Source: Bryobacter aggregatus MPL3 | GTDB lineage: Bacteria; Acidobacteriota; Terriglobia; Bryobacterales; Bryobacteraceae | Direction of reading: 5' to 3' | DNA: 64,000 bases | Assembly (NCBI RefSeq): GCF_000702445.1 | Contig: NZ_JNIF01000003.1 | Location: 992,001-1,056,000 of the forward strand | The notes under the pieces: generated by a model | Told to the model about the DNA's origin: nothing | What the model saw: only the letters and a program-made list of their open reading frames with translations | Database searches by the model: none | Program-made: the position numbers and the translations under genes | In this document: positions 46,178 to 58,684 of the stretch, in pieces | How the letters are laid out: the number at the start of each line of letters is the position of its first letter | How positions within the stretch are numbered: the stretch's first letter is position 1

Positions 46178-47011
46178 GTGATCTCGACTCTCCATGGCAC
46201 GCTGCACAAACGCAACGATTTTGACTCCCACATCCTTACCGGAGAGCGGGAACTGGTCATCTATCTGCCTCCAGGCTATGAGCAGCGCCCATCCCAACGC
46301 TATCCGGTCATGTACTTCCATGACTCCCAGAACGTCTTTGAGCCCCATACGGCGTTCATCCCTGGGCAGTACTGGCAAGTCCCCGAAACAGCAGACCGCC
46401 TCATCACCGAGCAGCGCGTCGAGCCACTGATTCTGGTTGGCATCCCTCACGGCGGCACCCGGCGCATTGACGAGTTCACGCCCAGCCCGAATCCTCAGGA
46501 GCACTACGGCGGCCAGGCTGCGTCCTATGGACGCATGCTCGTAGAAGAGGTGATTCCCTTCATCGATCGGGACTACCGCACGCTTCCCGGCCCCAAACAC
46601 ACCGGCCTCGGCGGCAGTTCGCTCGGCGGCCTGGTGACCATCTATTTAGGCATCCGGTATCCCGAGGTGTTTGGCCGTCTTGCCGTCATGTCCCCATCGG
46701 TGTGGTGGGATTACCGGATGATCCTCAGAAAGATCGTCTCGATCACCCACAAGCACCGGGCCAAGCTCTGGCTCGACGTCGGCCTGCGCGAAGGAAATAA
46801 TCCAAAGGCAGTTTTGCGCGACGTGCGCCTGCTCCGCGACGTGCTGATGCACAAAGGATGGAAGGCCGGAAGCAATCTGTTCTATTACGAAGATCACGAA
46901 GGCGGCCACGACGAGCGCGCCTGGGCCGCCCGCGTGCCGTCCATGCTGCAGTTCCTGTTCCCCGGGGCCCGGCCGCGCATTGAGCTGCCAGACTCAGCTA
47001 GTTTCCGTTGA
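46178..47011 (+). CDS. Esterase/alpha-beta hydrolase of the enterochelin-esterase type
   Basis: The 277 residues form a PF00756-type hydrolase: ERELVIYLPPGYEQRPSQRYPVMYFHDSQNVFE, then the nucleophile Ser148 in GGSSLGGLVTIYLG, and a C-terminal His in YYEDHEGGHDERAW. It may cleave an ester such as a siderophore, acetyl or feruloyl ester; no signal peptide is evident. The start is GTG 46178. The end overlaps the convergent glycosyltransferase gene by 14 bases. Confidence 0.85.
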   Translation: MISTLHGTLHKRNDFDSHILTGERELVIYLPPGYEQRPSQRYPVMYFHDSQNVFEPHTAFIPGQYWQVPETADRLITEQRVEPLILVGIPHGGTRRIDEFTPSPNPQEHYGGQAASYGRMLVEEVIPFIDRDYRTLPGPKHTGLGGSSLGGLVTIYLGIRYPEVFGRLAVMSPSVWWDYRMILRKIVSITHKHRAKLWLDVGLREGNNPKAVLRDVRLLRDVLMHKGWKAGSNLFYYEDHEGGHDERAWAARVPSMLQFLFPGARPRIELPDSASFR

Positions 47012-48530
47012 TCGTGGCGACAGGTCCAGGAAGCACCACCTCATAGACGTGGCGATCGAGATATCCAGTTTGCTCCGCTTCCATCCGCAGGGAAATCGTG
47101 GCCCCATCATCCTTCAACTTCGGGAGCAACCAGTTTTCATGATCCGAAGGCATCGCAAAGACCAGGAATCGACGGTGTGTCGCTAAGAATTGCTCATAGG
47201 AAACGACTTGGCCTCGAATCGGGAAGAGTCGCTGGACATGTACGAGGCCCTCGAACATATTCGATTTGATGTAGTGCAAGGCGGCCTCGTTGTTGGTCAG
47301 ATAGAAAAGTCTCGCCGCAAGTTGCGTGGGTTCCCGCCGATCCATTTCGAGAAAGGTCATGCCGTTTGCCGTAATAAAGGGCAAGTTGGGCTCGATCTCA
47401 CGATATTGCAGCGAAACATTCCTGTACCTGCCCATCTGCATTCCAGTCAGCCCCTTGCTCCAGACAAACAAACCCACCAAAAGAACCGTGATGAGAAGTA
47501 CCGTACCTGGATTCCGAAGCAGGCGTGCCAAAATGGCGACCACCAGCAAGGTCACGCCCAGCATCGCGCCAATTCCATAGCGGCCAACAAACTGAATGCC
47601 CGAAATCATGCAATAGACGCCGACCAGCGCCGGCATGGCCAGCGTCGTCAGACAGAAGGCAAGCTCATGAGATCGAATGATCTTGCACCACGGCTTCCCC
47701 GAGTCCCGCACGGCATATCCGAGAACCACGACGATCCCCACCACCGGCAACAGAATCATCACCAGGGAGTAGTAAAAGGTCGAGAGCAAGGCCATCGTGG
47801 ACTCCAGGGCCGGGGAAAAACGCATGGAATGCGCCGTTCGTAATAAGGGAAAATATAGCGGCAGAATCAGCAGAGGCAAGAGGATCGCCAGCCAGATCCT
47901 GCGGTCCAGACGGCGGCGTTCTACGCTCCGAACCAGTTCCCCCACTCCGATTGCGGAGCCAAAAAGAGGAGCGAAACAATGGGTGAGAAATAGGGCCGCC
48001 AAGGAGACCGTCAGCCCGGTGTGCCATCGGCTCCAGCGCGGCCTCTCGATCGCCGCCAACCAGCAATACAATCCGCAGCAGAGCAACGCCAGCATCAGCG
48101 CATAGGGCCGCGCCTCGACAGCAAAATAAACCAACCAGACGCACCAGAAGACCGCCATCCCCATCAGTCCAAACAGCCCACCCAGTCTGTGCCGCACCAA
48201 CTGAAAGACCACCAAACTCGCCGCCACAAATGCCAGCAAGGATGGCACGCGCGCACTGAAATCAGAATCGCCCAGCAGCAGGATGCTGATCCTCACCAGG
48301 AGAAAGTTAAGGGGAGGCTGCAGATCCACCGTCTGTACACTCTCGAGAAATCGATCCCAGCTCGGCGACATCGCGATGTAATAGGTCACCAACTCGTCGT
48401 ACCAGAGAGGCCGCAGAGCGGCTGGAATCATCACCATCGCGAATACGGCGAGACAGAACAGCAGTGCCCATCGTGGATTGCGGTCGAGCGTAGCCACGAA
48501 TTCCAGAAATCGGTTCATCGTTTGCTCCAT
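46998..48530 (-). CDS. GT39-family membrane glycosyltransferase (ArnT/PMT-like)
   Basis: This 510-residue polytopic protein has about ten to twelve membrane helices and, early on, PLWYDELVTYYIAM, the acidic DE motif in the first extracytoplasmic loop of ArnT/PMT-like transferases. These use polyprenyl-phosphate sugars as donors. The end of the protein is soluble and of unknown type. The local polyprenol-dependent-type GT2 (51797) could supply its donor (inference). ATG 48530 and ATG 48518 are both possible starts. Confidence 0.8.
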   Translation of the reverse strand: MEQTMNRFLEFVATLDRNPRWALLFCLAVFAMVMIPAALRPLWYDELVTYYIAMSPSWDRFLESVQTVDLQPPLNFLLVRISILLLGDSDFSARVPSLLAFVAASLVVFQLVRHRLGGLFGLMGMAVFWCVWLVYFAVEARPYALMLALLCCGLYCWLAAIERPRWSRWHTGLTVSLAALFLTHCFAPLFGSAIGVGELVRSVERRRLDRRIWLAILLPLLILPLYFPLLRTAHSMRFSPALESTMALLSTFYYSLVMILLPVVGIVVVLGYAVRDSGKPWCKIIRSHELAFCLTTLAMPALVGVYCMISGIQFVGRYGIGAMLGVTLLVVAILARLLRNPGTVLLITVLLVGLFVWSKGLTGMQMGRYRNVSLQYREIEPNLPFITANGMTFLEMDRREPTQLAARLFYLTNNEAALHYIKSNMFEGLVHVQRLFPIRGQVVSYEQFLATHRRFLVFAMPSDHENWLLPKLKDDGATISLRMEAEQTGYLDRHVYEVVLPGPVATINGN

Positions 48531-48649: not shown

Positions 48650-49426
48650 ATGAAAGTCGTGATCCTTTGTGGCGGAATGGGAACCCGGTTGCGAGAAGAG
48701 ACAGAGTATCGGCCCAAACCGATGGTCGAAATCGGCGGCCGGCCGATCCTGTGGCACATCATGAAGTACTATTCGCACTTCGGCTTCCGGGATTTTGTGC
48801 TGTGTCTTGGCTATCGCGGCCAAGTGATCAAAGAATACTTCCTCAACTACGAGGCGATGAATAACGATTTCACCATCTGCCTGGGACAAACCAATCAGAT
48901 TCACTTCCACGAGCGACATCGGGAGCAAGGCTTCCACGTTACCCTAGCCGACACGGGGCTTGAGACCATGACTGGCGGCCGCATCCGCCGCGCAGCGAAG
49001 TATCTGGACGGCGACACCTTCATGATGACCTACGGCGACGGCCTCTCCAATATCGATCTCGGGGCGCTGCTCGCCTTCCATCAGTCCCATGGCCGCATCG
49101 CGACGGTCACCAGCGTCAACCCGCCGGTTCGCTATGGAATCCTCAGCACGACAGCAAGTGGCGAGGTCTCGAGCTTTCTTGAAAAACCAGTTTCGCGCGA
49201 TTGCGCCAGTGCAGGCTTCTTCATCTTCGATCGAAAGATCCTCGACTATATTGACTCCGACGAAACCGTGTTTGAGAACGGTCCTCTCGAGCAACTGACT
49301 GCCGACAAGCAACTGATGGCGTTTCGCCACGATGGCTTCTTCTTCGCGATGGACACCTATCGCGAATACTTGCAACTCAATGAACTCTGGCGCTCGGGCG
49401 AAGCACCCTGGAAGGTGTGGCAGTGA
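48650..49426 (+). CDS. rfbF: Glucose-1-phosphate cytidylyltransferase
   Basis: The 258-residue protein is RfbF/Ddh[20 protein letters not shown] at the N-terminus (nucleotide-binding), [16 protein letters not shown], and [10 protein letters not shown]. It makes CDP-glucose from CTP and glucose 1-phosphate. It is the first of a tight operon (rfbF, rfbG, rfbH, GT2), overlapping rfbG by one base. Confidence 0.95.
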
Positions 49427-50454
49427 TGCGAGGATTCTGGGACGCCCGGCCCGTCTTCGTCACCGGGGCGACCGGCCTGGTCGGCAGTTGGCTCGTCAAG
49501 GCACTGTTACGCCAGGGAGCTGAAGTTGTTTGCCTGGTTCGCGACAGCGTTCCCCAATCGGAATTGAACCAATCGGGGGACGCAGCCCGGGTTCGCCTCG
49601 TGCATGGCGACATCTGCAACCAGGCGCTCCTCGAACGCATTCTCGGCGAGTACGAAATCGATACCGTTTTTCACCTTGCCGCACAGACCATCGTCGGCGT
49701 GGCGAACCGGAATCCGGTCTCGACCTTTTCGTCCAACATCGAAGGCACCTGGGCGCTGCTCGAGGCGGCCCGCCGTGCGCCCTCAGTCCGCCAGATTGTT
49801 GTCGCGTCATCCGATAAAGCCTACGGTGACCAGGAAAAGCTTCCCTACGAAGAATCCACGCCGCTGGAAGGCCGCCATCCTTACGATGTCAGCAAGTCCT
49901 GTGCCGATCTGATCGCGCAATCCTACGCCCACACCTATCAGCTTCCAGTTGTCGTCACGCGTTGCGGCAACTTCTACGGCGGGGGCGATCTCAACTGGAA
50001 CCGCATCATCCCTGGCACCATTCGTTCGCTCCTCCGCAATGAGCCGCCCCTCATCCGCTCCGACGGTCAGTTCATCCGGGATTATTTCTTCGTTGAGGAT
50101 GGGGCTGCTGCTTATCTCCTCCTTGCCGAACGTCTCGCCGGCAACCGCTTGCTCATCGGCCACGCTTTTAACTTCTCCAATGAGTCCCAGGTGACGGTCA
50201 CGGATCTGGTTCGGCGCATCAGCCGTCTCATGGGTTCGCGTCTTGAGCCGCGCATCCTGAATCAGGCCTCCCATGAGATTCGAAATCAGCAGCTCAGCGC
50301 CGCCAAGGCCAGAGAGATGCTGTCCTGGTCACCGCTCTTTAGCTTGGACCAGGGTCTCGAGCTGACGATCGCTTGGTACCGCCAATGGAATGAGCAGCGT
50401 AACCAATCCAGTCATGCCGCCGACGTCCATACGCTCGCAACGGTGCTCCGATGA
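49426..50454 (+). CDS. rfbG: CDP-glucose 4,6-dehydratase
   Basis: An extended SDR of 342 residues with [20 protein letters not shown], a [10 protein letters not shown] active site (Tyr/Lys), [15 protein letters not shown] and a C-terminal [10 protein letters not shown]. It converts CDP-glucose to CDP-4-keto-6-deoxyglucose. The neighbours rfbF and rfbH specify the CDP route over dTDP or GDP. I use ATG 49426 (TGATG overlap with rfbF) though GTG 49417 is also in frame. Confidence 0.94.
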
Positions 50455-51800
50455 CAAACGCCAGCCTCCTTGTAAAGCCCCCCGTCTCCAAGCACCGCGA
50501 GGAGGAACTCCGCGGTCAAATTCGTGAACTCGTGCGGGAGTACCACGCCACCGCCTTCGCGCCCCAACCCTTCTCTCCAGGGACAAGCCAGATCCCGTTT
50601 GCTGGACGCGTCTTTGATGCAGAAGAGATCGAAACGCTGGTAGAGTCCTCTCTCGATTTCTGGCTTACCACCGGACGCTTTGCCCGCGAATTTGAGCGCG
50701 AGTTTGCTCGCTTTTACGGCCTCCGCAATGCCCTGCTCGTCAACAGCGGCTCCTCGGCCAACCTGCTGGCTCTGACTGCGCTCACCTCCCCGCGCCTCGG
50801 CGACCGCGCGCTCCTACCAGGCGACGAAGTCATCACGGTTGCTGCCGGCTTCCCTACCACGGTCAATCCCATCTTCCAGAATGGCTTGGTCCCCGTCTTT
50901 GTGGACGTCGAGATCCCCACCTATAACCTCGACACCAGTCTGCTGGACGCCGCACTCTCCAGCCGCACCCGGGCCGTCATGATCGCCCACACGCTGGGCA
51001 ATCCCTTCGACGCAGCAGCCGTCAGCGCCTTCTGCCGCAAGCACGATCTCTGGCTGATCGAGGATTGCTGCGATGCCGTCGGGTCCACCCTCAATGGGAA
51101 GCTCACCGGAACCTTTGGAGACCTTGCCACCGTCAGCTTCTACCCGGCACACCACATGACGATGGGCGAAGGCGGCTGCGTCCTCACAAACACTCCGCTG
51201 CTCAAAACTCTCGCCGAATCCTTCCGCGATTGGGGACGGGATTGCTGGTGTGAACCCGGCCGGGACAACACCTGTGGCAAACGTTTCGATTGGCAGCAAG
51301 GCGAACTCCCCTGCGGCTACGATCACAAGTACACCTATTCGCACATCGGCTACAACCTGAAGGTCACCGACATGCAGGCCGCCATCGGCGTGGCGCAGTT
51401 GAAGAAACTCCCCGGCTTTATCGAGGCGCGCCGTGCCAACTTCAACTCTCTCTACGCCTCCCTCAAGGACCTTGCAGATTTCCTCATCCTGCCTGAGGCC
51501 ACTACTGGCTCCAACCCAAGCTGGTTCGGCTTCCCCATCGCGGTCCGGCCCAGCTCACCGGTGTCGCGCAATGAGATCGTCCGTTTTCTCGAGAGCCGCA
51601 AGATCCAAACCCGTCTGCTCTTTGCAGGCAATCTCACTCGCCAGCCGGCCTATCTCGGAAAGCCCTTCCGCGTCGCGGGCCATCTCCATCGCACCGATAC
51701 GATCATGAATCACGTCTTCTGGATTGGCGTCTATCCCGGACTCAGCACAGCCCAGCTCGACTACATGCAAGCTTCCCTCCACGAGGTCTTTGCAGCGTGA
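50451..51800 (+). CDS. rfbH: CDP-4-keto-6-deoxyglucose 3-dehydrase (E1)
   Basis: The protein has 449 residues and is a PLP/PMP-fold enzyme. The catalytic lysine is replaced by histidine in [12 protein letters not shown] (His234-235), as in E1 of the 3,6-dideoxyhexose pathway. The iron-sulfur cysteines [11 protein letters not shown] fit the C-x-C-x7-C pattern. E1 needs an NADH reductase (E3, RfbI/DdhD) to complete the C3 deoxygenation; no such gene is in the window. It overlaps rfbG by four bases. Confidence 0.95.
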
Positions 51801-52840
51801 GCCCAAAGAAGATCAGCATCGTCACTCCCTGCTTCAACGAGGAACTGAATGTCGGCGAACTGCACGCTCGCGTCCGCGCGGTGATGGCGCAGTTGCCGCA
51901 CTACAACTGGGAACATCTGTTCATTGACAATGCTTCTACCGATGGCACCGTCGAAATCCTGCGCGAGCTTGCCGCCAACGAGCCGCGCATCAAGGTCATC
52001 GTCAACACCCGCAACTTTGGTCCTTTGCGCTCCCCCGTCTACGGACTCCTCCAGGCCAGCGGCGACGCCATCATCCTCCTCTTCGCAGACCTGCAAGACC
52101 CACCGGAGTTACTCCTCGAGATGATCGCCGAGTGGGCCAGAGGCACTCCCGTCGTACTGCCCATCAAGGAAAGCAGCGATGAGAATCGCCTGATGTTCTG
52201 GGTACGCGGACTCTACTACCGCACCGTGCGCAAACTCGCACAGATGGAGACCTACGATAACTTCACTGGCTTCGGACTCTTCGACCGCAAAGTCATCGAC
52301 CTCGTCCGCAGCTTCAATGATCCCGACCCCTTCTTTCGCGGCATCATCTCCGAAATCGGCCTGCCGCATAAGAAGATCGCTTACAACCAGAAGCGCCGGC
52401 TACGCGGCTTCAGCAAGAATAATCTCTATGTGCTCTATGACACCGCGATGCTCGGCATCACGAATGTCTCAAAGGTCCCACTTCGGCTCTTTACCTTCTT
52501 TGGATTTGCTTGCGCCGGTCTTAGCATCCTCAGTTCTCTCGGCTACCTCATCTACAAATTGATCTACTGGGATCGTTTCAGTGTCGGCATGGCGCCCGTA
52601 GTCATCGGCTTCTTCTTTCTCACTTCGGTGCAACTGATCTTTGTTGGCATACTCTCGGAGTACATTTCGGCCATCCACGCCCAAGTCCTCCGCCGCCCGC
52701 TGACGGTGGAGAAAGAGCGGATCAACTTCGAAACGTCCGACCATCCCGGGTTCCTCACCCAGGATCTCCAAGCAATCTCACAGGCAACGATCACGCCGGC
52801 CAATCCCGAAGTGTCCGTGCGGACCGAAACCGCTCTCTAG
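51797..52840 (+). CDS. Family 2 glycosyltransferase with C-terminal membrane helices (DPM1/ArnC-like)
   Basis: The 347-residue protein has an N-terminal GT2 domain ([31 protein letters not shown] with the metal-binding acidic residues) and two C-terminal helices ([22 protein letters not shown] and [21 protein letters not shown]). Members transfer a sugar to polyprenyl phosphate. It could put a local sugar onto the lipid carrier used by the GT39-like protein at 46998. The start is GTG 51797, overlapping rfbH. Confidence 0.88.
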
Positions 52841-52842
52841 TG

Positions 52843-53381
52843 CTAGGCTGCCCAGGCAACTTGACGTTGAGCTGCCTCGGTTGCCACTTGTCCGGGATCA
52901 CCCTCATCCTCTCCCGTCAACAGCTGGATTTGAGCGGCCAGTGCACTCACTTGAGCTCGATCCTGCTCATCGGCCGGAGTGACATGGAGAGCCAACAGAT
53001 GGACCAGGGTATCTAGGCGATATGCACCTGAGTGCCTTTTTTCCTCTTGGCTCCGTCGTAGCCACCGCGCGCCCCGAGTTCCGGTGTCGACTGCAAGGTG
53101 CGGCTATCGAGAATTGCCGCGCTCGAATCCAACGCTGCGTCTGCTGATCAACCACCTCCCAAGGTGGCAGATCATTCGGCATCCAACGCCAAGGGGCTCC
53201 CGTTTTGATGATGTAGCGCAGCCCGTTGAAGACCTCTCGTAGATCATGGTTGTGCTGTGGTGCGGCTTCATCCAGCAAGGCCAGTTCGGGCGCCGCCCCC
53301 CATTCTTCGTCACTGAGCTCGGCCCGGCATCGCTTGCGGAGCCGGGGAAGCCATCCCTTCACCTTCTCAACAGTGAACAGC
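52843..53381 (-). pseudogene. Decayed IS5-family transposase remnant
   Basis: This covers the 546 bases between the GT2 and ThDP genes. In the minus-strand translation, the first part (LSDEEWGAAPEL, LREVFNGLRYIIKTGAPWRWMPNDLPPWEVV, TQRWIRA) is typical of IS5-family transposases. Then the frame jumps: [17 protein letters not shown] and [11 protein letters not shown] lie in another frame and end in a stop, and [23 protein letters not shown] in the third frame continues to a stop near 52843. About 50 residues between the first two blocks are missing. I did not detect terminal inverted repeats. It cannot encode an active transposase. Confidence 0.8.
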
Positions 53382-53386
53382 CGCCT

Positions 53387-55222
53387 CTAGAGTTTTTGGC
53401 TCTTCGGATGCATCCCCACCAGCATCATCTCTTCCCGTAGCGGCTCGCGTCCCAGCAGCGGACTCAAATCCTCAAGCGGCGGTGACACCATCTGCCCTTC
53501 CGCCGTAATGGCGAGCGCGAGCTTCGGCACCAGTAACTGCATCGGATGCATTGGCACTTCGCAAAGCACTGGCTCCGGCCCCGATAACACATCTTCGAGA
53601 ATGGCATCGGCATTCTCCCAGTCACACAAAGTCGCCGTCCTGAAGCCAAACGCGGCAGCCACCTTGCCAAAGTCTGGACAAGTCACTCCCGACTCCGGAT
53701 CCGCCCCGGCAAGCCGTCCAAAAATCGCCTTCTGCGTATGCTTGATCGACAGATACGACCCATTGGTAAACAGAAAGATCTTCAACGGCAGCCGATGATG
53801 GATCGCAGTCTGCATCTCCTGCAGATTCATCAGGAAAGACCCGTCACCACTGATCAGGATGACGCGTCCTTTGCCACGGGCGAAACTTGCGCCAATCGCT
53901 CCCGGCAACCCGAATCCCATCTCGCCCAGTCCCGTCGAATACACAACCCGCTGGCCCAGCTTCAGCCGCAGCGCCTGAAAACTGCAAGTGCACGCAGTTC
54001 CGGCATCCAGCACCACCGTCTCGTCAGCAGAGAAATGGTCCGACAACTTGTCGATGAAGCGATAGGAGTTGATATAACCCGGCTCATGGTCATGCGTCCC
54101 CGCCTCGATGATCGGATACTTCTTGCGCCAGGCATTGCACTGCTTGAGCCAGGCCGTCGGTTCGGCCAGCGCCCCGGCCAGATGGGACAAGGACGATGCA
54201 GGCTCGCGCGGCTCGTCGAGCAAGGCGCGCAGAAAATCACCTGCATCGGCTTCAATTCCTAGATGCAAAAGCGAAGCCAGCTTCGCGATCTCAGTTGGAT
54301 CAATATCGACCATAATCCGAGTTGCGCCGCGAGCAAACTCAGACGCCTCATACCCCACCTGCGGGATAGCCAGCCTGGTCCCGATTGCGAGCAACAGATC
54401 GCAGTTCTGCAGAACAAAATTCGCGCAGCGCTGCCCGTACACCCCGGCATGTCCAAAGTGCAGAGGCTCATCGGTTGCGAGGAGGTCGGCACCGTTCCAG
54501 GCCGTCAAGTAGGCGGCAGGGTATCTCTGCAGCAGCGGCGCCACCAAAGCGCTCGCCCCCGCAATTCGAATCCCATTGCCGAGCCAGATCACCGGCCTCT
54601 GGGCCTGCGCCAGATACGCACGTACTTGAGCAACTGCGGCCTCCAGCGCTGATGGCTCTTTCGCCGGCGGCGTGTATCCTTCCAGCAAGTCTGGATCGAT
54701 CCTCGCCGACTGCACATCGACCGGAAGATCCAGCCACACCGGCCCCGGCCGCCCTGCGGACGCCAGGTACAGCGCCTTCTCCAGGTGATAGCGAATGGAC
54801 TCGGGCCGGTCGACCAGCGCCGCATACTTCGTCATTCCGGATACCGTCTTTACGACATCGAAACCCTGCACGCCCCACATCCGCAACGGGTTCGCCGCTG
54901 TGGCGTGTATCGACTTCTCTTGTCCCGACAGGATCAGACAAGGGACTGAATCGGCCCAGGCATTTAAGACGCCGATGATCGCATTCGCCGCTCCCGGCCC
55001 TGCCGTCACCAGCATCACGCCGGGCCGATCCGTCAAGCGAGCGTAGGCAACCGCAGCCATCAATCCGGCCTGTTCATGATGCGGGCAGACGTACTTGAGC
55101 TCCGGATGATAGGCGATCGAATCCAACAGATGCGCATTTCCCGCACCCGAGACCACAAAGACATGTTTGGCACGATATGCAGCCAACCGATTGGCCACAT
55201 ACTCACTTAGCTTCATCAACAT
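53387..55222 (-). CDS. ThDP-dependent enzyme of the acetolactate-synthase/YerE-like type
   Basis: The 611-residue protein has the three-domain ThDP layout: an N-terminal pyrimidine domain with the cofactor-activating Glu50 (VCPHHEQAGLMAAVAYAR), a central domain, and the C-terminal PP domain with ISGDGSFLMNLQEMQTA and TNGSYLSIKHTQKAIFG. Family members include acetolactate synthase and YerE, which joins a two-carbon unit to CDP-3,6-dideoxy-4-ketoglucose in yersiniose synthesis. Context (rfbFGH on the other side of the IS relic, an SDR upstream) favours a sugar carboligase over branched-chain amino-acid synthesis (inference). It overlaps the SDR gene upstream by seven bases. Confidence 0.8.
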   Translation of the reverse strand: MLMKLSEYVANRLAAYRAKHVFVVSGAGNAHLLDSIAYHPELKYVCPHHEQAGLMAAVAYARLTDRPGVMLVTAGPGAANAIIGVLNAWADSVPCLILSGQEKSIHATAANPLRMWGVQGFDVVKTVSGMTKYAALVDRPESIRYHLEKALYLASAGRPGPVWLDLPVDVQSARIDPDLLEGYTPPAKEPSALEAAVAQVRAYLAQAQRPVIWLGNGIRIAGASALVAPLLQRYPAAYLTAWNGADLLATDEPLHFGHAGVYGQRCANFVLQNCDLLLAIGTRLAIPQVGYEASEFARGATRIMVDIDPTEIAKLASLLHLGIEADAGDFLRALLDEPREPASSLSHLAGALAEPTAWLKQCNAWRKKYPIIEAGTHDHEPGYINSYRFIDKLSDHFSADETVVLDAGTACTCSFQALRLKLGQRVVYSTGLGEMGFGLPGAIGASFARGKGRVILISGDGSFLMNLQEMQTAIHHRLPLKIFLFTNGSYLSIKHTQKAIFGRLAGADPESGVTCPDFGKVAAAFGFRTATLCDWENADAILEDVLSGPEPVLCEVPMHPMQLLVPKLALAITAEGQMVSPPLEDLSPLLGREPLREEMMLVGMHPKSQKL

Positions 55223-56268
55223 CCTGACTGCTCCTCAAACGACAAGATCGTCCGTCCAAACCCCTCCGCAATTCCCACCCGCGGCTCCCAGCCCAGCGCT
55301 CGCATCTTCCCGATATCCGGGCAACTCCGCGAGATCGTACTATTCACATAACTGCTTGCCGCATCACGGTTCTGATACTCCACGCACAGGTTCCGCTCCG
55401 GGTATAGGCGGCACAGTGTCTCCGCAAGATTCCGAATCGAAGATTCCTCGGCACTCCCGACGTTGTAAGCCTGCCCGGAAGTTCCCTCGATCAGCACGCG
55501 GAAAAACGCAAGTGTGGCGTCCGCCAGATAGCAGAAAGCCCGCGTCGCCAACCCATCGCTCCGAAGAACCAGATTCCGGCGGGCCACTACGTCGGCTACC
55601 AGATCGGCAAAGACCCGGCCATCCTCCAAAGCCATCCCGGGACCATAAGTATGAAAGGGACGGACAATCTTCACCGGCACTCCAAACTGCGTCTGCCAAC
55701 AGACGCAAAGAGCCTCGCCTGCCCGCTTCGCTTCTCCGTAGCTGCAGCGAAGCTTCAACGGGTCGAGCAGTCCATACTGATCCTCGCGCGTTGGAATCAT
55801 GCTCCCATCGATCGCCCCATAAACCTCACCACTACTAAAGAACAGGACGCTCTCGCTCTTCCGATCGCGCGCCAACTCGAGCATCCGCCGCGTCCCAAAT
55901 ACATTCGCCTCAAAGGTCCCCACTGGGTCGCTGCCCAAGTACAGCGGACTCGCCTGGCTTGCCGCATGGACAATGAAATCGACCGGTCCCTCCGGCCCAC
56001 GATAGGCATCGCAAACATCCTGGACGACAAACTCCACCGCGCCTCGCCCAGCAAATCGCTTCCGGGCTTTCTCCAAATTCCGAACCAGCCCAAGCACCCG
56101 AATTCCAGCCCCACGCGAAGCATTCAGATGTAAGAGCGTCTCCACCATGTAGGCCGGCAAAAAACCATTGGCCCCAGTAACGAGGATGGTCTTCCCAAAC
56201 ATCCGCTCCCACGGCAGAGCCGAGGCCACAATTTGTTCCAGATCCGAATCCATCACGCGTATCGGCAC
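55216..56268 (-). CDS. NAD-dependent epimerase/dehydratase (extended SDR)
   Basis: The protein has 350 residues from GTG 56268, which has GGAG five bases upstream; longer and shorter starts exist. The nucleotide-binding loop is TGANGFLP (31-38), with HAASQAS, SSGEVYG, YGEAK (catalytic Tyr/Lys) and RPFHTYGPGM. It belongs to the UDP/dTDP/CDP-sugar SDRs. In the operon with the ThDP enzyme it may epimerise or reduce the branched sugar intermediate, as YerF does in yersiniose synthesis (inference). It overlaps the ThDP gene. Confidence 0.85.
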   Translation of the reverse strand: MPIRVMDSDLEQIVASALPWERMFGKTILVTGANGFLPAYMVETLLHLNASRGAGIRVLGLVRNLEKARKRFAGRGAVEFVVQDVCDAYRGPEGPVDFIVHAASQASPLYLGSDPVGTFEANVFGTRRMLELARDRKSESVLFFSSGEVYGAIDGSMIPTREDQYGLLDPLKLRCSYGEAKRAGEALCVCWQTQFGVPVKIVRPFHTYGPGMALEDGRVFADLVADVVARRNLVLRSDGLATRAFCYLADATLAFFRVLIEGTSGQAYNVGSAEESSIRNLAETLCRLYPERNLCVEYQNRDAASSYVNSTISRSCPDIGKMRALGWEPRVGIAEGFGRTILSFEEQSGC

Positions 56269-57368: not shown

Positions 57369-58058
57369 TCACACCGCGTCCTGGACACAACGGAACCCGA
57401 TCACGCGGCTGCCGCGCACCGGTGTAAAATCCCAGCGCCGCAACGCACAACGGGCCATTTCGGCCGGCATGATCCAGGAGCCGCCTCGCAAGATCTTCAA
57501 CGGCAAGTCATCCACCCGAAGCCCATTGCGCAAACGAAACACATTGCCCGTGCCGGAGTCGCTGGCAGTCCACTCCAGTACATTGCCTGCCATGTCGCGG
57601 CATCCATACGGCGAGGCGCCCGCCTGTCCATAGTGATCCACGGCAGTGGTTCCAGCACCATCCGTATTGCAGCGGACCGCATCGAACACATCGCCCCACG
57701 GATAGACACGGCCATCGGTCCCACGCGCGGCGAGTTCCCATTCCACCTCAAGCGGGAGCCGGGCCGCTCTCCAGGCACAATACGCGCAAGCGCCTCGCCA
57801 GGTCACACCCGTGGCAGGATGTTGCGCAAACTGAGGCTTTGCAAAGGAATTCTCACATTCAAACCACTTTGCCTCGCCCAACAGATCGGCACACGGAGGG
57901 ATCGCATGGGCAGGAAGCGACGCTAGAAACGCCGCATACTGCGCATTCGTGACCGGATCACGATCGATCCAGAAGCCATGCGCCACGCTCTCGATCCGTT
58001 GTGTCTCCGCTTCTCCATAGAGGAAAGATCCTCCGGGAACCCAGACCATCTCCTCCAC
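57369..58058 (-). CDS. SUMF1/FGE-fold (formylglycine-generating-type) protein
   Basis: The protein (about 229 residues) shows the sulfatase-modifying-factor fold: VWVPGGSFLYG, WIDRDPVTNAQYAAFL, PATGVTWRGACAYCAW, LEVEWELAARGTDGRVYPWG, MAGNVLEWTASD and GFRCVQD. FGE proper oxidises a cysteine in sulfatases, while many relatives are non-catalytic or act in ergothioneine-type chemistry. GFRC is the usual C-terminal motif, but the full catalytic set cannot be confirmed by eye. The start at GTG 58058 or ATG 58049 lies just after the preceding gene's stop. Confidence 0.8.
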   Translation of the reverse strand: MEEMVWVPGGSFLYGEAETQRIESVAHGFWIDRDPVTNAQYAAFLASLPAHAIPPCADLLGEAKWFECENSFAKPQFAQHPATGVTWRGACAYCAWRAARLPLEVEWELAARGTDGRVYPWGDVFDAVRCNTDGAGTTAVDHYGQAGASPYGCRDMAGNVLEWTASDSGTGNVFRLRNGLRVDDLPLKILRGGSWIMPAEMARCALRRWDFTPVRGSRVIGFRCVQDAV

Positions 58059-58060
58059 CG

Positions 58061-58684
58061 CTATCTCATCTTGTCCACGCCATCGACATCGATTGTGACC
58101 GGCTTGCCAAGGGACACATAGTCCACATCCACCACCCGCGAACCCAGCACCGCCCCATCGCGAAATACCAGCAGCAAGTTCCGGCCTTCCGGAGGCTTGG
58201 AAAACTGAAAACTGCGATCGCGCCCGACGGGAACATCTTCTGCCGATTCCGTTCCAAACAGCGGCTGGATCCGCACCCACAAGGTTGCCCCAACCGTGTC
58301 TCCGCCCACCACCTTCCCGGACAAAGCTCTCGGTGTCCCACTCGTCCGCCCCATCGTAAACGCCTGTCCCGCCATCACCACGACATTGCTCGTATCCACC
58401 GCCAGCACCAGAGACTCCTCCTGCTTCACGACATAACGAACATTCCAATCTGCCGCCGCAGGGCCATTCTGATAACGCAGAACCGCTGTGTAGCTGCCAT
58501 ACGGAATGCCCGTCGCCAGCAGTCCTTTGAATCGGGCAGCAAACTCCGGCCCCGCATCGCTGGTGAAACGGAATACCCGAACATCCAATGATTTTCCATC
58601 CCGGTCTACCGGAACAATGCGCACCGTGGACACTTGCGCCAAGAGGCACTGCGCCAGCAATAGAAAAAGAGCGATCCTCACCAA
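58061..58684 (-). CDS. Secreted hypothetical protein paired with the SUMF1 gene
   Basis: The 207-residue protein has a signal peptide (IALFLLLAQCLLAQ) and a beta-rich mature part without catalytic motifs I recognise. It contains IPYGSYTAVLRYQNGP and a repeated VVGGDTVGATLWVRI strand pattern, recalling carboxypeptidase-regulatory-like beta sandwiches. The start is GTG 58684. The SUMF1-domain gene follows two bases after its stop, so the two form an operon. Confidence 0.65.
   Translation of the reverse strand: MVRIALFLLLAQCLLAQVSTVRIVPVDRDGKSLDVRVFRFTSDAGPEFAARFKGLLATGIPYGSYTAVLRYQNGPAAADWNVRYVVKQEESLVLAVDTSNVVVMAGQAFTMGRTSGTPRALSGKVVGGDTVGATLWVRIQPLFGTESAEDVPVGRDRSFQFSKPPEGRNLLLVFRDGAVLGSRVVDVDYVSLGKPVTIDVDGVDKMR

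Follow-up and report, generated by a model that had tools for sequence, protein, structure and literature searches.

Does a sugar locus of the acidobacterium Bryobacter aggregatus MPL3 direct the synthesis of a branched-chain 3,6-dideoxyhexose resembling yersiniose? We addressed this question in a 64,000-nucleotide stretch of the genome (the window), where an original prediction had described rfbF, rfbG and rfbH as separated by an insertion sequence (IS) relic from the genes of a thiamine diphosphate (ThDP) enzyme and an extended short-chain dehydrogenase/reductase (SDR). Comparison of sequences and structures established the enzyme classes, the linkage of these genes and the clade of the ThDP enzyme. 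We put at about 0.72 the probability that the locus makes a C-4-branched, yersiniose-like 3,6-dideoxyhexose and loads it for the cell surface. The six sugar genes listed below (all but the first and the sixth entries) are intact open reading frames (ORFs) at the positions originally predicted. Statements cited by PMC number draw on excerpts of those papers.

46998..48530, minus strand: GT-C type membrane glycosyltransferase (Pfam PMT_2, 48.3 bits)
48650..49426, plus strand: rfbF/ddhA, glucose-1-phosphate cytidylyltransferase (TIGR02623, 338.8 bits, curated cut-off 300.25; PDB 1tzf, 275.7 bits)
49417..50454, plus strand: rfbG/ddhB, CDP-glucose 4,6-dehydratase, divergent subtype (TIGR02622, 229.7 bits, curated cut-off 278.45; PDB 1rkx, 161.3 bits)
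50451..51800, plus strand: rfbH/ddhC, pyridoxamine 5'-phosphate (PMP)- and [2Fe-2S]-dependent C-3 dehydrase, E1 type (RfbH model, 740.5 bits, cut-off 423)
51797..52840, plus strand: glycosyltransferase family 2 (GT2) protein of the polyprenyl-phosphate type (sll0501, PDB 5eke, 149.7 bits; undecaprenyl-phosphate Ara4FN transferase, PDB 9hwj, 83.2 bits)
52866..53377, minus strand: degraded IS5-type element with an ORF remnant at 52967-53362 (Pfam DUF4096, 57.1 bits)
53387..55222, minus strand: predicted YerE-like ThDP carboligase of the JanthE clade, GDG motif (PDB 8rph, JanthE, 612.2 bits)
55216..56253, minus strand: extended SDR ("SDRa"), likely an NADPH-dependent CDP-sugar ketoreductase in the YerF role

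In the proposed pathway, RfbF would form CDP-glucose and RfbG would convert it to CDP-4-keto-6-deoxyglucose, from which RfbH would strip the C-3 hydroxyl, supplied with electrons by a ferredoxin of general use and its reductase. The ThDP enzyme would decarboxylate a 2-oxo acid (pyruvate is the likeliest) and attach the resulting acyl anion at the C-4 ketone. Reduction of the side-chain ketone by the SDR, with NADPH, would give a yersiniose-like 4-C-(1-hydroxyethyl) sugar. The GT2 protein would transfer the branched sugar to undecaprenyl phosphate, and the GT-C enzyme would use the carrier-bound sugar outside the membrane. The donor, stereochemistry, electron source, carrier step and product in this scheme are ones that we infer.

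The ThDP Enzyme

Among solved structures, the ThDP protein best matched JanthE from Janthinobacterium sp. HH01, over residues 3-610 and with 48% identity over its length; the next match, the acetohydroxyacid synthase (AHAS) 5ahk, scored 250.9 bits. According to PMC12247030 and PMC12188165, JanthE is a YerE-like lyase joining 2-oxo acids to ketones. The window enzyme carries a catalytic glutamate, Glu50, within HHEQ (from residue 48), a GDG motif from residue 459 and Asn487 of the ThDP/Mg motif, in agreement with the pyrimidine-domain glutamate and GDG motif noted originally. The Val121, Tyr297 and Lys567 positions (numbering of PMC12188165, one below the chain count) are also retained.

In a 116-row FastTree phylogeny, from which proteins shorter than 520 amino acids (aa) and same-genome repeats were left out, the window protein and JanthE occupied one clade. 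E. coli IlvB, IlvI, Gcl, PoxB and Oxc fell outside it, as did the IlvB and POX-like proteins of the Bryobacter genome itself. A 39-row IQ-TREE phylogeny, with an outgroup of AHAS only, recovered a JanthE-type clade of 31 rows (98/94) separate from the three AHAS sequences; within it, a CDG-type clade of 16 rows with JanthE (100/100) was sister to 15 rows with the window enzyme (99/96).

The top NCBIfam matches of the ThDP protein are acetolactate synthases, as would be expected of an AHAS lying beside the sugar genes by chance. The best of them, however, scored 319 bits where the cut-off is 538.35. The genome also has a separate IlvB on a different contig, beside ORFs that we named from sequence as ilvN-like, ketol-acid reductoisomerase-like and isopropylmalate-synthase-like. 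On these grounds and on both trees, AHAS/IlvB identity was rejected, and the conserved rfbFGH linkage described below makes such a chance neighbour hardly credible. The protein is predicted to be a YerE-like carboligase of the JanthE clade, the placement for which the original prediction had named IlvB as the competing one.

Linkage across the IS Relic

The relatives' loci, labelled L###, come from a genome scan with the ThDP protein alone as query, in which 80 of 104 confirmed loci were kept; genes and modules were called present by BLAST identity thresholds that we set. Since at least one of rfbF, rfbG and rfbH occurred in 54 of the 80 loci (46, 48 and 35, respectively) and a GT2 relative in 55, the grouping of ThDP, rfb and GT2 genes is not due to chance.

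The IS relic was recognized by its DUF4096 match, while an NCBIfam IS5 match fell short of the cut-off; nearly the whole relic (query positions 26-537) is covered by related stretches (90% and 82%) elsewhere in the same genome. L002, a contig from a Bryobacter metagenome-assembled genome, encodes ThDP and SDR proteins 80% identical to those of the window; its ThDP and GT2 stop codons overlap, and no IS lies at that junction. L015 holds rfbF-rfbG-rfbH-ThDP-SDR-GT2 as a single run on one strand, and L140 has the same order, also on one strand, with an FkbM methyltransferase gene ahead of GT2. Because L002 lacks the insert and L015 and L140 hold the six genes as one run, the IS relic is a late insertion and not a divider of two systems, and the ThDP and SDR genes belong with rfbFGH, as predicted. 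The arrangement of SDR-ThDP facing rfbFGH-GT2 is common to the window, L002 and L003, and the window holds a rearranged form of the L015/L140 run.

The Dideoxy Cassette and Its Electron Source

RfbF and RfbH scored above their cut-offs. RfbH matched the structures of E1, the CDP-4-keto-6-deoxyglucose 3-dehydrase, with 621 (3bcx) and 617 bits (3bb8), and retains the E1 signature, a catalytic His replacing the aminotransferase Lys together with a four-Cys [2Fe-2S] pattern (residue roles from PMC8987622). This signature was found in 58 of the 65 RfbH-type proteins collected, a set that includes the window protein and some proteins from overlapping loci.

Findings that weigh against a yersiniose-like pathway concern RfbG, the reference enzymes, the electron source, the donor and the reductase. 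RfbG remained under its curated cut-off, but its best solved-structure match is the CDP-glucose 4,6-dehydratase 1rkx and its active-site motif contains SDK; all three predicted rfb genes are present. YerE and YerF are likened to the window proteins by role, not by direct sequence comparison. In the search for a YerE reference, a plasmid tblastn gave no match at E <= 1e-80, and genome samples around the genome of L020 gave matches in 6 of 398 and 9 of 369 genomes, none identifiable as YerE.

The original prediction noted that the window has no E3 reductase gene, proposed to look for one elsewhere in the genome and named its absence there as a refutation. No E3 relative was present in the window (E <= 1e-4, as for the other window searches below), but a dedicated E3 (ddhD, a fused ferredoxin/ferredoxin-NADP reductase, FNR) was not found in the 98.19%-complete assembly either, which leaves the gene set of Yersinia only partly matched. 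Searches with PF00175, PF00111, the FNR-ferredoxin protein of the L075 type and the DdhD-like protein of L003's genome yielded eight Fer2 matches and a single FNR-type protein, which lacks a ferredoxin domain. Three of the eight matches were inspected and none was an E3: free ferredoxins (L083), a 258-aa protein with Fer2 only (L137) and a 701-aa ORF adjoining ORFs that we named NADH-dehydrogenase-like (L138); the other five lie in frames of 156-201 aa. L003's genome does encode a DdhD-like protein (328 aa; Fer2, FAD_binding_6 and NAD_binding_1), about 1.1 Mb from its sugar cluster.

With no such reductase found as partner for RfbH and an IS element in its middle, the locus could be non-functional or halt at the 4-keto sugar. 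All six ORFs are intact, however, the genome encodes free 2Fe-2S ferredoxins and a protein of FNR type, and an FNR-ferredoxin gene of the L075 type lies in the flanks of just 7 of the 80 relatives' loci. SpnQ provides a precedent, running on general ferredoxin or flavodoxin pairs (PMC8987622). We consider a dead or truncated pathway improbable. Because SpnQ uses such general pairs, the missing E3 does not refute the yersiniose-like pathway, and by analogy the C-3 dehydration step can work without an E3. With no dedicated E3 found, RfbH would have to rely on a ferredoxin of general use together with the reductase of that ferredoxin.

The Side-Chain Donor

We compared the genes near the ThDP gene in three groups of loci. 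Group A is the CDG-type clade; we divided its sister clade, by module and host, into groups B and C. L013, with a partial gene, was placed in no group. An acetylating acetaldehyde dehydrogenase was encoded in all 15 loci of group A and a 4-hydroxy-2-oxovalerate aldolase in 14, the contig of L029 ending early. Both families (TIGR03215, TIGR03217) were verified on L020 (9989-14843), the nearest JanthE relative found (69%), where the two genes lie downstream. Group B carried an HpcH/HpaI aldolase and Ldh_2 in nine of nine loci (families verified on L007), a count that is partly by definition; L009, a near-copy of L010 whose contig ends soon after the ThDP gene, was left out. Group C, five acidobacterial loci plus the window, had neither module, with two contigs of only 5.5-6.2 kb. 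Neither the window nor the five related loci had a relative of the aldolase, Ldh_2, acetaldehyde dehydrogenase or NeuB genes.

The active-site alignment followed these groups. CDG occurred in JanthE, 13 aligned group A rows, L158 and L159, and GDG in all nine B and six C rows. Position 407 of the JanthE chain was Met in 14 of 14 A and nine of nine B rows and Ala in six of six C rows, and thus in all six acidobacterial ThDP enzymes. In JanthE this residue, Met406, would lie close to Cys458 of the CDG motif. The 4-hydroxy-2-oxovalerate genes of the CDG clade appear to point to the natural donor of JanthE, for which the excerpts of PMC12188165 identify no physiological substrate.

For the window enzyme we favour pyruvate as donor, with a probability of perhaps one half or slightly more, because the window and group C lack a donor module, the genome encodes no 4-hydroxy-2-oxovalerate aldolase, with only weak matches of related enzymes (the acetaldehyde dehydrogenase was sought in the window alone), and its HpcH-type matches are weak. 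The two-carbon branch is accordingly what we infer from the missing module. YpYerE favours pyruvate (PMC12247030).

Four HpcH-type matches outside the window would nevertheless allow a longer or hydroxylated 2-oxo acid from an unlinked aldolase, giving a branch of four or more carbons as in erwiniose or caryophyllose. The modules of the nine group B loci and of 14 of the 15 group A loci support such a donor, as does the acceptance of such donors by JanthE and ErwE (PMC12247030, PMC12188165), and the window group lies near the HpcH/Ldh_2 loci, unseparated from them in the 39-row tree. In that tree the acidobacterial group was not supported as monophyletic, with L015 and L140 joining a group B row at 86/67. 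The genomic HpcH matches, however, are only 26-33% identical, and no such gene lies in the window or in the 20-22 kb around L003, L015 and L140. We regard the longer donor as unlikely, though well short of negligible, and retain pyruvate in the yersiniose-like scheme.

In group B, the surroundings of the ThDP gene in L005-L008, L010, L012, L014 and L016 also include another cytidylyltransferase-like gene beside rfbF, a DJ-1/PfpI protein, c20 (no Pfam match) and, in many cases, a HAD phosphatase. At L160 (5768-11249), the ThDP gene has dehydroquinate-synthase-like, HpcH-like and Rieske-like neighbours, which suggests yet another possible donor route.

The SDR as a Probable CDP-Sugar Ketoreductase

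The likely start of the SDR is the ATG at 56253, giving 345 aa; the start common to its relatives lies within the longer, 391-aa ORF. By VIA-align, the closest structure to the SDR model was the CDP-6-D-glucitol synthase 8v4h, N-terminal helix included, at 22% identity; this synthase itself reduces a CDP-linked ketone with NADPH. Using the residue roles in NADPH and CDP contacts from PMC10918830, we found Arg56 and Arg208 (NADPH) and Arg164, Asp212, Arg233 and Tyr295 (CDP) invariant in 21 of 21 SDRa sequences, with Ser at Thr227 in all 21. The modelled protein resembles a reductase that uses NADPH on a CDP-linked ketone, consistent with the reductase role predicted for it, and we propose it for the reduction of the branch ketone, a step of yersiniose synthesis called not yet characterized in the excerpts of PMC4753412 (2016).

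Several results fit this role less well. Thr98, Ser100, Thr195 and Gln196 were kept in none of the 21 SDRa sequences, Lys60 in 11 and Asn34 in 14; UDP-glucuronate decarboxylase led by profile score (208 versus 177 bits), and Foldseek E-values put UDP-glucose 4-epimerase first and 8v4g 13th. The SDR might therefore act on another CDP-sugar, as an epimerase, a decarboxylase-like enzyme or a CDP-alditol synthase, and the final sugar would then keep its acyl branch. The second cytidylyltransferase-like gene that accompanies SDRa in group B recalls the pairing described for CDP-6-D-glucitol synthase (PMC10918830). UDP-glucuronate decarboxylase, however, has Asp at the NADPH-binding Arg of SDRa and a gap at the cytosine-stacking Tyr, and RfbF lies above the glucose-1-phosphate cut-off. 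No second cytidylyltransferase of the group B type occurred in the window or the five group C loci: when that gene was compared with the window for a fructose-6-phosphate cytidylyltransferase partner, the only match was RfbF (34%), the Campylobacter partner not being used as query. We judge another substrate for the SDR to be a distinctly minor prospect and keep the ketoreductase role.

Transferases and Neighbouring Genes

The GT2 protein resembles the polyprenyl-phosphate glycosyltransferases sll0501, presumably GtrB, and ArnC by profile match to solved structures, in line with the carrier role predicted for it. In L003, two homologues of the GT-C protein (41-43%) separate the ThDP gene from the GT2 gene; the GT-C gene is a possible acceptor-side transferase, although its part in the sugar system is a guess. 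An FkbM methyltransferase gene stands next to the SDR gene in L003 (8011-8958), L004 (1708-2658) and L140 (4884-5804), so the sugar of these relatives may be O-methylated; the window had no FkbM relative. Just past the sugar genes, the window encodes a formylglycine-generating-enzyme/sulfatase-modifying-factor (FGE-sulfatase) domain protein (57369-58649, minus strand, 157.5 bits).

Distribution in the Same Order

The original prediction considered such a sugar notable in an acidobacterium. The locus is real, and a compact branched-sugar operon is thereby placed in Acidobacteriota, but it is less singular than supposed: 26 of the 257 genomes of the same order had a ThDP-protein match at E <= 1e-120. 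A full-text literature search returned nothing on branched or dideoxy sugars of Acidobacteriota. Six of the 26 genomes (G000, G050, G077, G078, G137 and G091) belong to the JanthE clade. The other 20 contained 22 loci with ThDP enzymes on other tree branches, and 17 of these had a NeuB-type match; four of the five without one were contigs of 3.9-6.1 kb. No NeuB-type match was found in the 15 group A, nine group B and five group C loci. Pfam confirmed NeuB in L182, L184 and L175, and in L168 of another group. The NeuB-type synthase lies near a different ThDP enzyme in L182 (8208-14509), L184 (10136-16498), L167, L171-L173, L175 and L176.

L182 is ordered rfbF-rfbG-rfbH-NeuB-HAD-ThDP. Because its rfbFGH products, 66-70% identical to those of the window, stand beside another ThDP enzyme, closely related sugar cassettes are joined to different carboligases within one order. 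That NeuB supplies the acyl donor is a guess, and the enzyme could instead act in the synthesis of another sugar; a literature search returned nothing on NeuB with ThDP-branched sugars. If true, such a donor would link two sugar skeletons through a carbon-carbon bond.

We tentatively propose, as a possibility that we rate somewhat below an even chance, that YerE-like loci are modular. One CDP-4-keto-3,6-dideoxyhexose cassette would be combined with exchangeable carboligases, and each carboligase would have a donor-making partner of its own: 4-hydroxy-2-oxovalerate for the CDG clade with JanthE, an HpcH product in related Bacteroidota, a NeuB-made 3-deoxy-2-ulosonic acid in the third group, common in the window's order, and only pyruvate in the window's group.

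Comparison with Known Systems

The yersiniose set of Yersinia pseudotuberculosis comprises ddhA-D, yerE and yerF, and the pathway has also been predicted in Pseudomonas WCS417 (PMC4509608). The window has counterparts of ddhA, ddhB and ddhC, one ThDP enzyme and one SDR; it differs in that ddhD was not found in its genome and in that a polyprenyl-type GT2 gene lies inside the cluster. The locus very probably works like the yersiniose pathway. We place it among the YerE-like branched-sugar loci and do not class it as the yersiniose pathway itself, because ddhD was not found and YerE and YerF were not directly compared.

RfbH is like the E1 of Yersinia, which is paired with an E3, whereas none was found in the Bryobacter genome; SpnQ likewise works without a dedicated E3 (PMC8987622). 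The SDR shares most CDP and NADPH contacts with the CDP-6-D-glucitol synthase of Campylobacter jejuni HS5.17 (8v4g/8v4h) and differs from it in the sugar-side residues and in the lack of a second cytidylyltransferase in the window.

The closest characterized counterpart of the carboligase is JanthE (PDB 8rph-8rpj), which shares its clade. The two differ in the CDG motif of JanthE, where the window enzyme has the canonical GDG, in the Met at chain position 407, which is Ala in the window enzyme, and in the donor module, which lies downstream of the ThDP gene in JanthE's nearest relative and is lacking in the window. Mapping CDG to a clade with 4-hydroxy-2-oxovalerate genes makes the substrate gap of JanthE testable, and the relatives compared here suggest a shared core sugar whose side branch varies between bacteria.

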